A model generated the notes under the pieces. The model had not been told where the DNA came from. It did not search any database and was given only the letters and a program-made list of their open reading frames with translations. From Candidatus Alcyoniella australis (GTDB taxonomy: Bacteria; Lernaellota; Lernaellaia; JAVCCG01; Alcyoniellaceae): a stretch of 64,000 nt of DNA. Below are positions 698-9,218 of the stretch, piece after piece (the first letter of the stretch is position 1; every line of letters starts with the position of its first letter). The stretch covers positions 1 through 64,000 of the forward strand of contig JAVCCG010000017.1 in the NCBI GenBank assembly GCA_030765605.1, read 5' to 3'. Position numbers and translations under genes: made by a program.

Positions 698-1771
698 CTA
701 CTTGCCGCTGAAGGGCATTGCCAGTTTTTTCAGCTGGTCCTGGGTGATTTCGGATCCGTAGGTGAACCACTGCACCAGCGGCTTCTCGTCGCTTTGGAGC
801 AGCACCCACTTGTCGCCGTCCTTGTCCAGGAAGGCCCATTCGAGCTGGTCGGTGACCGCCGGGACCACGCCCTTAAAGAACGTCGCCTTGCCGTCCTCGA
901 AGCTCATCATCGGTACGGACTCTCCGGCCTGCAGCAGCTTGACCGCCTCGTTGGCGTGGCAGCTCTCGCAATGCCGCCCGCGGCTGATCGAGTGCGTGTA
1001 GTAAGGACCGTAGCCCACGAACTTCTTATCGCCGGTCACCAGGCTCATCGCTGTGCCCGACGTAACCTTGCCCTCGTAGTTGACCAGCAGCAGCCAGTCC
1101 TTGTTCTTGATGAACGTGCCCTTGCGCGAGCCGGTGCGCAGGAACGTATCGAAGTGGCAGTTGTTGCACGAGAAGGTGCTCTGCACGTGGCAGGCCGAGC
1201 AGTCCAGCTTGTCGCCGTGGACAGTGTGCGAAAGCAGGGTCGAGTCCATTGGCAGAGCGTTTGTGGACTCGGCCGAATGGCAGTCCAGGCAATCGGTGTC
1301 CACTGCGCCTTGGTCGCGCATGGTCGTGTACTGCGTGCCGTTGCCGTGTACGTCTTCGCCGCGATGGCAGCGCGAGCAGCTGAAGCCCGCGGCCATGTGT
1401 ACGTCAAGGCAGCCGGCGTTGCGATCCATGCCGAAGGTGCCCTTCTCGCGGCTGTGGCAGGCAAAACAGGTATCGTTCTGATGCGACATCGCGCCGGAGT
1501 AGCTGAAGTTTTCTCCGCGCTTCTCCGCGTGGCACTGGTCGCAGGACTTGACATGGCAGTTGCTGCAGTCCAGCTGGTCGTAGGGAATGCCCGTGAGCGA
1601 CATGAAGCCGCCCTCTTTCTCATACCAGTAGCGCATGCCGTTGCCCGTGGCGTGCAGGCTCTTGTCGAAGAACGAGCTGTCAGCCTCGTCCTCGGCCAGC
1701 GCTGCCACGGTGAGCAACATTAACGCTGCAATTACCCCCAAGGCCACAATAGACCTTCCGCGCAACTTCAT
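698..1771 (-). CDS. Multihaem c-type cytochrome (8 CxxCH motifs plus one degenerate site)
   Basis: Exported cytochrome c of 357 aa. Residues 1-26 form a signal peptide (MKLRGRS, hydrophobic core, ALA). CxxCH haem-binding motifs begin at about residues 69, 77, 102, 132, 161, 191, 202 and 268. A ninth motif at residues 121-125 reads CLDVH, so the second Cys is lost. The C-terminal 80 residues have no haem motif. It should act as a periplasmic or surface electron carrier. The haem spacing is irregular and I do not recognise a named family. A GGGGGAGA ribosome site precedes the ATG. It sits inside the MinD/NifX cluster, which is an unusual partner set. Confidence 0.88.
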   Translation of the reverse strand: MKLRGRSIVALGVIAALMLLTVAALAEDEADSSFFDKSLHATGNGMRYWYEKEGGFMSLTGIPYDQLDCSNCHVKSCDQCHAEKRGENFSYSGAMSHQNDTCFACHSREKGTFGMDRNAGCLDVHMAAGFSCSRCHRGEDVHGNGTQYTTMRDQGAVDTDCLDCHSAESTNALPMDSTLLSHTVHGDKLDCSACHVQSTFSCNNCHFDTFLRTGSRKGTFIKNKDWLLLVNYEGKVTSGTAMSLVTGDKKFVGYGPYYTHSISRGRHCESCHANEAVKLLQAGESVPMMSFEDGKATFFKGVVPAVTDQLEWAFLDKDGDKWVLLQSDEKPLVQWFTYGSEITQDQLKKLAMPFSGK

Positions 1772-5489: not shown

Positions 5490-5521
5490 CGGGCCGCTCC
5501 TATCCGGGCGGCCCGTTTTTT
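5490..5521 (+). terminator. Rho-independent terminator after the GMP synthase gene
   Basis: An 8-bp GC stem, CGGGCCGC (5490-5497) with GCGGCCCG (5508-5515), and a 10-nt loop are followed by six T. It overlaps the stop codon of the convergent tspO gene by two bases. Confidence 0.85.
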
Positions 5522-5999
5522 AGTTGAGCAGGTATAGCGCGCTGTTGAGCAGGGATGCGAACCCGACCCACAGCACGTAGGGAACCAGCAGTGCGGCGGC
5601 CATCGGCGAAACTTTCTTGAACGCCGAGTGAGTCCAGGCCAGTAATCCCAGCAGCAGCAGGATCACCACCAGTCCCAGGAACACGTCGTGTAGGCCGAAA
5701 AACATCGGCGACCAGATCGCGTTGAGCCCGAGCTGAATCGCGAACAGCTTCAGCGCTCGCCGCACCGTCGGTCGCTCGATCCCTTGACGCCAGACCAGAT
5801 AGGCGGCAATTGCCATTAAAAGATACAGCGTGGTCCAGACTGGACCGAACAGCCAGTTGGGCGGGTTAAACCACGGCTTGTTCAGACCCGCATACCAAGT
5901 GGGGATCGACGGAACCGTAAACAGCGCGCCCAACACGCCGGTCGCCTGGCAGATCAGAATCAAACCAAGCAGCTTGGCCGTCTCGCGCAATACGCGCAT
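5520..5999 (-). CDS. tspO: TspO/MBR family membrane protein
   Basis: A 159-aa protein with five hydrophobic segments, the TspO/peripheral benzodiazepine receptor fold that binds tetrapyrroles and modulates porphyrin or stress responses. Family landmarks include WYAGLNKPWFNPPNWLFGPVW, the first-loop Trp/Pro-rich block, and the LNAIWSPMFFG segment in helix 3. The ATG at 5999 overlaps the TGA of the upstream peroxiredoxin-like gene (TGATG), implying translational coupling. A GTG three bases upstream is also possible. The link to a redox lipoprotein suggests a role in oxidative or haem stress (inference). Confidence 0.9.
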   Translation of the reverse strand: MRVLRETAKLLGLILICQATGVLGALFTVPSIPTWYAGLNKPWFNPPNWLFGPVWTTLYLLMAIAAYLVWRQGIERPTVRRALKLFAIQLGLNAIWSPMFFGLHDVFLGLVVILLLLGLLAWTHSAFKKVSPMAAALLVPYVLWVGFASLLNSALYLLN

Positions 6000-6553
6000 C
6001 ACTGGATTTGGCGGAGAGCGTCGAGCACCGTGGTATTGGCCGGGATGTCGGACATGCCCGAGCTGTAGTGCAGGTAGGTGATCGTGCCCTCGCTGTTGAT
6101 CACGAACAGCGCGGGCATCAACCCGAGCTTGAGCAGGCGGTACTGCTGGCCGTAGAGCTCGCCGAGCCTGGCGTCGGGATCGGGAATACCGACGTAGGGC
6201 AGCTTGTTCTCGGTCCAGAACTCGCGCATCTTTTCCGCGTCATGGCGCGCCACCACTGCGATTTGCGCGTTGGAGGCTTCGAACTTGGCGATCTCGTCTC
6301 GCATCTGACCCAGATGCTTGCGCGAATACGGTCAGCCGAAGCCGCGTAGAAACACCAGCACCAGCGGGCCGTCCTGTAGCAGGCCGCGCAAATCGACCTG
6401 TTCGCCGTCGAATGTCTGCGCCTGAAAATCGGGCGCACTCTGGCCTTTGTTGAGCATCGGTCCTCCACAAGCACTGGCGCTCAGCGCCAGCACGATCAGC
6501 CCTATGAGCAATGTTCCCAGATACAGCCGCGTGCTTCGTAGTGTTTTCCCCAT
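5999..6553 (-). CDS. Peroxiredoxin-like (AhpC/TSA) selenoprotein lipoprotein, in-frame UGA read as Sec
   Basis: The 184-aa reading frame is interrupted by one TGA (6332-6334, codon 74). Upstream are a lipoprotein signal (ASAC, Cys29), a GQSAPDF start to the thioredoxin fold and LVLVFLRGFG. Downstream the same frame continues PYSRKHLGQMRDEI, then the family tail SSGMSDIPAN. Homologues have CPxC where this has TGA-PYS, so UGA replaces the peroxidatic Cys. A 6-bp hairpin with a GGGTC loop begins 14 nt after the UGA, as bacterial SECIS elements require. Apart from the lipidated Cys29 the protein has no other Cys. GGGAGGG precedes ATG 6553. The alternative is a nonsense-mutated pseudogene, but the flanking frame is intact. 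No sel genes are in the window. Confidence 0.82.
6301..6317 (-). promoter_or_regulatory. Bacterial SECIS-like hairpin
   Basis: A perfect stem GCATCT (6312-6317) pairs with AGATGC (6301-6306) around the loop GGGTC, read on the minus strand. The loop's first G is 20 nt after the UGA at 6332-6334, within the range seen for bacterial SECIS elements. A short lower stem (CGC with GACG, offset by an internal loop) may extend it. Confidence 0.65.
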
Positions 6554-6704
6554 CAGCCCTCCCGTGTTCCAAGGTAGTACTGATACCCGGAGTGAGTTGC
6601 TGACCAATGTCATATTGTATGCGGTTTTTCGGCAGGTGGACGTGCGATAAACGAGCGCGGCGGGCAGCCGTTGCCGCCCACCGCGCATCAATACAGATTA
6701 TTTA

Positions 6705-8882
6705 TCAAGCGGGGTCCGGATCGTCGTCGTCGTCGGGCCAGACCTCGTCGTCGTCATCATCGTCGTCGTAGCCCGTCCAGGGATCCCGATAGGGCAGGTC
6801 GATGGCCAGCACGTCGTCCCATGAGTCCATGTCAGTGACAACCAGCGCGGCCTCGGAGATCGAGTAGATGTAATCGCCGATTACCACTGAGCGCAGTACG
6901 TTGTTGTTGCCGTACAGCGGATCGGAGCCCGTTTCGCCGGTGAAGTCCGAATGGTCCACGTCGTGCAGGTGGGTGAAGCCTTGTTCCACCGTGGCGCGGT
7001 AGATCATTAATGCGTGGTAGTCTTCGCCATACTTGAGATCGTCGTCATCATCGTCGTCGCCATAGCCCCACTCACTGTAGGGGAAGGCCAGCAGGTCTTT
7101 GCTCGCGTAGTACAGGAACGCCTTGTGATCCTGGTTGGCCAGGGATCGACCATCGTAATTGCCGATGTTCTCCTGGTGCAAAATCGTCGGCGCGGCGAAG
7201 TCGCTGACGTCGAACAGTACGAGTTTGACGCCCCAGGTGTCGCCCCACTGATCGCCCTGCAGGCCGAAGCCCAGCAGGTAGTCCTCGCCAAAGGGATGCA
7301 AGTAGGCCGAGTAGCCGGGCATCTGCAATTCGCCGACCACGGCCGGAGCCGTCGGATCGCTCATGTCCAGGGTGAACAGCGGATCGATCTGCTCGAATGT
7401 CACCAGGAATCCGCGATCACCCAGGAAGCGCGCCGACCTGATCTCCTCGCCCGGCGCGATGTCGCGCAACGCGCCGACGACCGTCAACTGCATCGAGCCC
7501 TGCTCGAGCACGAACACGTGGTTGGCCTGTTCCCCGCTCCAGTTACCGGTGGTGGTGGCGATCCGCAGGTAGTCCTGGTACTCGCTCATCGAGAACTGAT
7601 TAAGCACCCAGCCCTCGACCTCGCCCGTGCCCACGTAGATCGCCTCGGAGGCGGTGGAGGCGATGTCGAACTTGTGGATCAACGAGCTGTCGGGGTCGTA
7701 GTCCTCGAACCAGTCCCAGGCCTGCCACGGATCGGTGGTCACGTACAGCGCGCTGGTCGAGGCATAGACGATCGAGCCGTCGGCGATCAGCCCGATGTCG
7801 TGCTGCTTGGCCGCCGGATCCTTCATATCGATGGAGATCACGCTCAGCGAGTCGGTTCCCTGGGAGTTGCTCGGTCGATAGAGGTCGGTGCAGTCGCTGA
7901 GTGTGCCCGAACTGATCTGCTCGCCCTGGGGCGTGTGCACGATTTGGTACAGCCGCGGCATCCAGGATTCGAGTTCGCTCGATTCGATCAGCTCGCGGTT
8001 CTCGCGCTCGAGTGCGTCGTAGGCCGCGTTGATCGCGTCGAAGTCGCAGTTTTCCCAATATTCGTCGCAGTACGGCGAGGGGTCGATCCAGGTCTTGTAG
8101 TCCGGCCCCTTGTCGCTGGACCAGAGGGCAACGCGCACGCCGTTGTCAACGCGGCGCGAACTCAGGTAGTAGCCCTCGACGTAGTCCTCGCGCACCAACT
8201 GCATTGCGGCGGGGTCGGAGATATCGACCACCGTAAGTTTGAGTACCTCCCGCGGCAGCTGTTCAACGTCCAGGTCGGGCCAAACGTCGTCGGGGAGCTG
8301 ACTGCGGCCTACAGCGGAGAAGACCAGCACGTAGTCGGCATAGAGGAACATCTCCGTGGCCACGCCCGTGATCTCGATTCGGCCCAGCTCGGTGGTCTGG
8401 TCCGCGGGCTTGGGATCGAACACCAGCAAATGGCCGTTGGTCACCAGCACCAGCCGCTCGCCATCGGTCTTGACCAGGTCGGCCTCGTCGACTCCCTCCT
8501 CCTGCACGTTGGTGTCGGAGTGGTCGTCGTCATCGCGCCCCGCGTCGTCGTCGTCGCCCGTCGAGTCGTCGTCGCCCGAGTCGTCGTCGCCCGAGTCGTC
8601 GTCAGCCGAGTCGTCGTCGCCGAGTTCGTCGTCGTCATCGCCGTACCAGCCGAACGGGTCGTCACGGTACTCGTCGATGATTCGTTCCATCTGTTCGATC
8701 TCGAGCGCGCGCAGATAGCTTAGCGCCTCGTTGCAGCTCTCCATGCGGTGCAGGTTGTTCGACGTTTGGGCGGTCTCGCCGCCGCCATTGCCGTCGCCCT
8801 GGCATGAGACGAAGATCAGCGGCGCAACGAGCAGCGCCAGCCCGAACGCGATCATCGATATAATTCTGAGCCTGGTTCCCAT
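6705..8882 (-). CDS. Asp-rich lipoprotein with C-terminal beta-propeller (COG4880-like)
   Basis: A 725-aa surface or periplasmic lipoprotein. The signal peptide ends at FVSC (Cys27). Residues 82-120 are Asp/Ser/Gly repeats (DDDSGDDDS units). A large domain follows that opens with NVQEEGVDEADLVKTDGE, the hallmark of secreted beta-propeller proteins distantly related to WD40. A second Asp-rich stretch lies near 600 and an Asp tail ends the protein. The function of the family is unknown; calcium or polysaccharide binding is possible. GGGGGA precedes ATG 8882. An in-frame upstream extension to 8987 lacks a ribosome site and would spoil the signal peptide. Confidence 0.85.
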   Translation of the reverse strand: MGTRLRIISMIAFGLALLVAPLIFVSCQGDGNGGGETAQTSNNLHRMESCNEALSYLRALEIEQMERIIDEYRDDPFGWYGDDDDELGDDDSADDDSGDDDSGDDDSTGDDDDAGRDDDDHSDTNVQEEGVDEADLVKTDGERLVLVTNGHLLVFDPKPADQTTELGRIEITGVATEMFLYADYVLVFSAVGRSQLPDDVWPDLDVEQLPREVLKLTVVDISDPAAMQLVREDYVEGYYLSSRRVDNGVRVALWSSDKGPDYKTWIDPSPYCDEYWENCDFDAINAAYDALERENRELIESSELESWMPRLYQIVHTPQGEQISSGTLSDCTDLYRPSNSQGTDSLSVISIDMKDPAAKQHDIGLIADGSIVYASTSALYVTTDPWQAWDWFEDYDPDSSLIHKFDIASTASEAIYVGTGEVEGWVLNQFSMSEYQDYLRIATTTGNWSGEQANHVFVLEQGSMQLTVVGALRDIAPGEEIRSARFLGDRGFLVTFEQIDPLFTLDMSDPTAPAVVGELQMPGYSAYLHPFGEDYLLGFGLQGDQWGDTWGVKLVLFDVSDFAAPTILHQENIGNYDGRSLANQDHKAFLYYASKDLLAFPYSEWGYGDDDDDDDLKYGEDYHALMIYRATVEQGFTHLHDVDHSDFTGETGSDPLYGNNNVLRSVVIGDYIYSISEAALVVTDMDSWDDVLAIDLPYRDPWTGYDDDDDDDEVWPDDDDDPDPA
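8517..8645. repeat. GAC/GAT trinucleotide-rich tract encoding an Asp linker
   Basis: Low-complexity DNA of GTC and GTCGCCCGA units (plus strand), encoding DDDSGDDDS-type repeats in the beta-propeller lipoprotein. Near-identical 15-bp units lie side by side, so copy number could vary by slippage. Confidence 0.7.
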
Positions 8883-9218
8883 TGCATCCCCCGCATCGAC
8901 CGATTGAAAATTCCGCCTCGACCATTGTTCAGTGGCAAAAAATATACCAATTGCCGCCACCGCGTCTGGTCGAAACACCCGCGACAATGATAATCAATAT
9001 TTACCCCGTTCAATAGAAATATTAATTCGTTAGGCAGCTTGATCGAATCCCGGTTCGTCTGATGAAAAACTGATATGCAGCGCGGAAAACCGTCGACAGC
9101 GGGCCGAGGTAATGGGTGAAATTGCAAAGGGACCGCAACTCTGATAATGATTTATTATTGACGGGTTTCGGTTACAGACGACAAAAAAAATTTAATACCC
9201 CAGGCCAGGAGGCTCGAA
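8883..9218. promoter_or_regulatory. AT-rich divergent promoter region with Fur-box-like sites
   Basis: This 336-bp gap between divergent envelope genes has no credible ORF. GACAATGATAATCAATATT at 8983-9001 matches 16 of 19 positions of the classic Fur box. A second partial site (GATAATGAT at 9143-9151) abuts a TTGACG (9158-9163) that could be a -35 for the rightward porin gene. Iron or another metal regulator may control both genes; this is inferred from sequence similarity only. Confidence 0.5.

Follow-up and report, generated by a model that had tools for sequence, protein, structure and literature searches.

A reading frame on the minus strand of the window (the whole 64,000-nucleotide stretch of DNA analysed here) is crossed by an in-frame UGA, which raises the question of whether the gene is broken or encodes a selenoprotein and, in the latter case, what chemistry its product could perform. 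An earlier note on this DNA had described a 184-codon selenoprotein frame at 5999-6553, and we reproduced that frame on the minus strand, with the UGA as codon 74. Read from 6553 to 5999, its translation runs MGKTLRST...LALSASACGG...LVLVFLRGFG-UGA-PYSRKHL...RQIQ-stop, that is, 184 codons followed by a terminal UGA. Annotation without selenocysteine (Sec) decoding would truncate the gene at the internal UGA, and the protein would be missed. The features that bear on the question are as follows.

5999..6553, minus strand: putative selenoprotein gene for a peroxiredoxin-fold putative lipoprotein; 184 codons, frame open with the UGA read, matches to PF00578 and PF08534, homologues
6332..6334, minus strand: UGA codon 74, assigned to selenocysteine from the homologues with UGA at the same codon and the genomic Sec machinery
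6323..6325, minus strand: Ser77 codon; alignments put it where UxxC proteins have their partner Cys and peroxiredoxins their peroxidatic Cys
6301..6317, minus strand: SECIS-like hairpin GCATCT-GGGTC-AGATGC, from folding; recurs in the four nearest relatives
6467..6553, minus strand: lipoprotein-type signal with lipobox ...LSASA-C29, read by eye in the translation
6557..6563, minus strand: Shine-Dalgarno-like GGGAGGG just 5' of the ATG, seen in the sequence
5520..6000, minus strand: tspO (PF03073, E 5.8e-51), whose start overlaps the selenoprotein stop (TGATG)

Two Pfam domains span the UGA, PF00578 (E 3.6e-20; 72.6 bits against a cut-off of 26, which places the protein in the AhpC/TSA superfamily) and PF08534 (E 1.4e-18), and GC3 downstream of the UGA is 0.86, a coding-like value. 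One alternative to Sec is a true stop: the gene may be in decay and carry a nonsense mutation, or a Cys codon (TGC or TGT) may have been misread in sequencing. Taken alone, a single UGA in a draft assembly would have this appearance, and the window's own phylum offers no close relative for comparison: among its seven genomes searched, only the window's genome has the gene, which suggests that it was lost in relatives or acquired by transfer. The phylum of the genome bearing the nearest gene (G350) has it in one of nine genomes.

Homologues from farther afield bear directly on this alternative. A contig scan with the window protein alone as query found no relative. The first relative, L023, is 35% identical to the window protein and has the UGA too, and a two-row alignment of these proteins (A1) led to 77 loci; the patterns used for fetching were [RQ][EK][FY]W[TA][EK]NK and [GS]MSDIP[AE]N, with the Sec codon outside both. 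UGA occupies exactly the codon-74 position in 75 of the 77 homologues, and Cys is found in two (L106, CPFA; L124, CPFC). The statement in the earlier note that relatives have Cys at this site is therefore wrong for the near family. The two Cys forms, the only ones among the 77, belong to Leptolinea, and L106 also lacks the partner Cys. Record titles include Chloroflexota, Desulfobacterota, KSB1, Spirochaetes, Firmicutes, Actinobacteria, Fusobacteria, Lokiarchaeota and Bathyarchaeota; most of these records are MAGs, and single taxon names may reflect binning errors. Archaeal MAGs (L121, L122 and L123 from Lokiarchaeota and L127 from Bathyarchaeota) also have this protein, their Sec codon being UGA, and cluster in the tree as a starred group of their own. 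Archaeal SECIS elements are located elsewhere than bacterial ones.

Comparison with the nearest relative, L150, reveals 56% protein identity before the UGA (23/41) and 55% after it (60/109), and the nucleotide differences 3' of the UGA number 38, 24 and 80 at codon positions 1, 2 and 3, respectively. Similar identity on either side and third-position-biased change argue that a frame crossing the UGA is not a chance feature; the decayed downstream sequence that the earlier note had named as counter-evidence is not seen. Set against the recurrence of UGA at one codon across the homologous records, the upstream-like conservation beyond it and the coding GC3, a true stop is very improbable; to the extent that sequence can decide, decay, a sequencing error and ordinary termination are ruled out.

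The genome (4.29 Mb, 98% complete) also holds the Sec machinery that the earlier note had proposed searching for. selA lies on the same contig, 1.7 kb past the window end (579.8 bits, over its cut-off), and the genome further contains selB (355.8 bits), selD (386 bits) and one tRNA-Sec with a UCA anticodon (76.1 bits). selD itself carries UGA in SHGAGUACK and the formate dehydrogenase of the genome carries it in RIUHSS, in both cases at the usual Sec site, so that, with the peroxiredoxin-fold gene, the genome has at least three likely selenoproteins. The window was also screened by coding bias for other genes crossed by UGA; this weak screen, which missed the present gene as well, returned just an adjacent gene pair and apparently non-coding frames. 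L034, a distant AhpC/TSA protein from a genome of the window genome's class (G005), has RGGW-UGA-PYCNTQL, which makes it probable that a second member of the class uses Sec.

A changed genetic code, with UGA read as Trp or another residue, would also account for the frame, which is open whichever residue UGA encodes. However, guaA and the Sec gene itself terminate in TGA, both homologues with a sense codon have Cys at this site, and selA, selB, selD and tRNA-Sec are all in the genome, so that such a code has a negligible chance of being correct. We thus rejected gene decay, sequencing error and a changed code on the conserved UGA, the conserved downstream sequence, the Sec machinery and the TGA stops. 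The selenoprotein reading is strongly supported by the complete machinery, the conservation of the UGA and the lack of decay 3' of it, and no result of the analysis argues against Sec insertion: the gene is not broken, and its codon 74 is almost certainly decoded as Sec.

The earlier note had also reported a SECIS-like hairpin with a 6-bp stem and a GGGTC loop, and this element is present, the first base of its stem being nt 15 after the UGA. In the mRNA it reads GCAUCU-GGGUC-AGAUGC (nt 15-31), and its apical loop (nt 21-25) starts with G, as in bacterial SECIS elements. At the same place, the window gene and the four relatives that form a clade with it (described below) pair 6, 6, 5, 6 and 5 bp. 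Joint synonymous resampling of the five genes gave a mean of 3.0 bp against the 5.6 observed (fraction 0.0005, which is not a clean probability because the genes are related), and for the window gene by itself the hairpin is modestly better than synonymous resampling (fraction 0.043). Across 82 genes, the hairpin region is more stable than its synonymous resamples (mean z -1.47, compared with -0.14 to -0.36 for stretches of these genes outside it), and in the wider family the common hairpin sits a few nt farther 3' than in the window gene. An Rfam search found no listed SECIS family at the hairpin.

What kind of protein does this gene encode? The N-terminal signal suggests that the product is probably lipid-anchored outside the cytoplasm, and the translation bears out the claim that the lipidated Cys is the sole thiol of the mature protein, which has no Cys besides the lipobox Cys29. 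Sec74 is probably its only redox-active residue. The lipobox is absent from L150. An AlphaFold model built on a 42-row alignment (pLDDT 90, pTM 0.82; the first 30 residues are uncertain) has peroxiredoxins as its closest solved folds, the best PDB match being Bcp1 (Z 23.5, rmsd 1.5 over 147 residues). In an alignment to Bcp-type peroxiredoxins that is gap-free near the site, Sec74 pairs with the Ser/Thr of PxxxT/SxxC, Ser77 with the peroxidatic-Cys position and Arg70 with the Pro, and the canonical motif PxxxT/SxxC(U) is thus lacking. Since Sec stands at the Thr of TxxC and Ser at the peroxidatic position, the protein is not a canonical peroxiredoxin. The earlier description of a peroxiredoxin-like protein with UGA in the active site therefore holds for the fold and is only loosely right for the site: model and alignment together describe a peroxiredoxin fold whose nucleophile stands where that of thioredoxins does.

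Most members of the wide family have UPFC or UPYC at this site. Cys is present at position +3 in 71 of the 75 Sec genes, and 62 of these 71 have no further Cys in the domain. The window protein instead belongs to a five-member clade with L150, L052, L053 and L057 (support 100/96 after masking of the motif columns), in which the residue at Sec+3 is S, A, A, A and T for the window protein, L150, L052, L053 and L057, respectively, and Sec is kept; L057 is a long branch, and its exact position in the clade is less sure. There is no Cys at all in L052, L053 and L150, and L057 has five, all near the N-terminus. Judging from these alignments, the partner Cys was lost while Sec was kept, in a clade that spans at least three phylum-level groups. 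In a limited literature search, we did not find this partner-less clade inside the PF00578 family, or its lipoprotein form, described. The clade provides a natural test of lone selenol chemistry on a peroxiredoxin fold and bears on why the family holds Sec so firmly where Cys would seem enough.

These features suggest a mechanism. SelB and tRNA-Sec would decode codon 74 with the aid of the downstream hairpin, yielding a 184-residue protein of predicted peroxiredoxin fold that the lipobox would anchor outside the cytoplasm. Sec would sit at the helix start, where thioredoxins carry their first, attacking Cys. With the second Cys replaced by Ser, oxidised Sec could not form an internal Se-S bond; a hydroperoxide would presumably oxidise Sec, and a separate external thiol would then reduce it. 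Because there is no other Cys, and by analogy with glutathione peroxidases, we somewhat favour a one-Sec cycle of this kind, in which the protein would act as a peroxidase or reductase and depend on an external thiol for recharging. The main functional rival is a thioredoxin-like reductase role, in which the protein would be an envelope thiol:disulfide oxidoreductase whose single Sec attacks disulfides or S-oxidised proteins. Sec at the thioredoxin nucleophile position, the UxxC motif of most of the family and the very name of the nearest known group, 'Prx-like thiol:disulfide oxidoreductase' (PMC13188914), all speak for such a role. Dithiol exchange, however, normally requires the second Cys that this clade has lost, and in the entry for GPX-like selenoproteins (UxxT, PMC13188914) the +3 position is likewise taken by a hydroxyl residue, which leaves the oxidoreductase role a credible but less probable account than the one-Sec cycle.

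The position of tspO adds a possible second consequence of UGA decoding. The earlier note had called the two genes translationally coupled; the overlap of stop and start in TGATG is confirmed, and coupling itself is plausible from that overlap. In the roughly 40 nt upstream of the tspO start, no obvious Shine-Dalgarno run was seen. Because the selenoprotein stop overlaps the tspO start, translation of tspO would probably depend at least in part on ribosomes that have passed the UGA. Taken together with the lack of a visible ribosome site, the overlap would allow a stricter reading in which TspO is under selenium control and its synthesis strictly requires passage of the UGA, the gene then serving both as enzyme and as selenium gate; we regard this as unlikely. 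As far as their ORFs show, tspO is not adjacent to the gene in L052, L053 and L057, and the link therefore looks local. At L053:4480-5979, where tspO would be, an apparent outer-membrane efflux protein is encoded 14 nt past the stop of this Desulfobacteraceae gene. Elsewhere in the window, a multihaem c-type cytochrome (698-1771, minus strand; PF14522, PF14537) lies a few kb off, and a secreted beta-propeller protein with long Asp-rich runs (PF09826) is encoded at 6705-8987 on the minus strand.

A comparison with known systems places the window protein as a small variant branch of an already known kind, the Prx-like selenoproteins. Prx-like selenoproteins appear in reviews under UxxC or UxxU (PF00578), with UxxS treated as a family of its own, cd02970/PF13911 (PMC13188914, PMC9312934); Prx-like UxxC proteins, 'Prx-like 1' of PMC2398784 among them, are already common in marine metagenomes (PMC2398784, PMC1088965), and archaeal members are known as well (PMC9499178). 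The UxxC/UxxU thiol:disulfide oxidoreductases share with the window protein the AhpC/TSA domain and Sec as the first residue of the CxxC site, and the wider family retrieved here is UPYC/UPFC, whereas the window protein has UPYS and a lipobox and its sister genes have UPYA or UPYT; the absence of Cys or Sec at +3 sets them apart from that group as described. The PRX_like2/AhpC-TSA_2 selenoproteins (PF13911) share the UxxS motif and a peroxiredoxin-like fold, but profile scores separate the two, the window protein reaching 16.5 against a cut-off of 27 for PF13911 and 72.6 for PF00578. Its best NCBIfam match is the SelL-related redox protein NF040769 (E 1.3e-20, residues 39-135), although at 73.8 bits it falls below the cut-off of 120. 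SelL proteins carry a UxxU motif. Selenocysteine peroxiredoxins (TxxU) have the same fold, whereas the window protein has its Sec three residues earlier, at the Thr position, and Ser at the peroxidatic one. Closest in logic are the glutathione peroxidases (UxxT): they are a different family, to which the window protein gives no GSHPx match up to E 1, and they, too, pair one Sec with a hydroxyl residue three positions on, in a thioredoxin-type fold.
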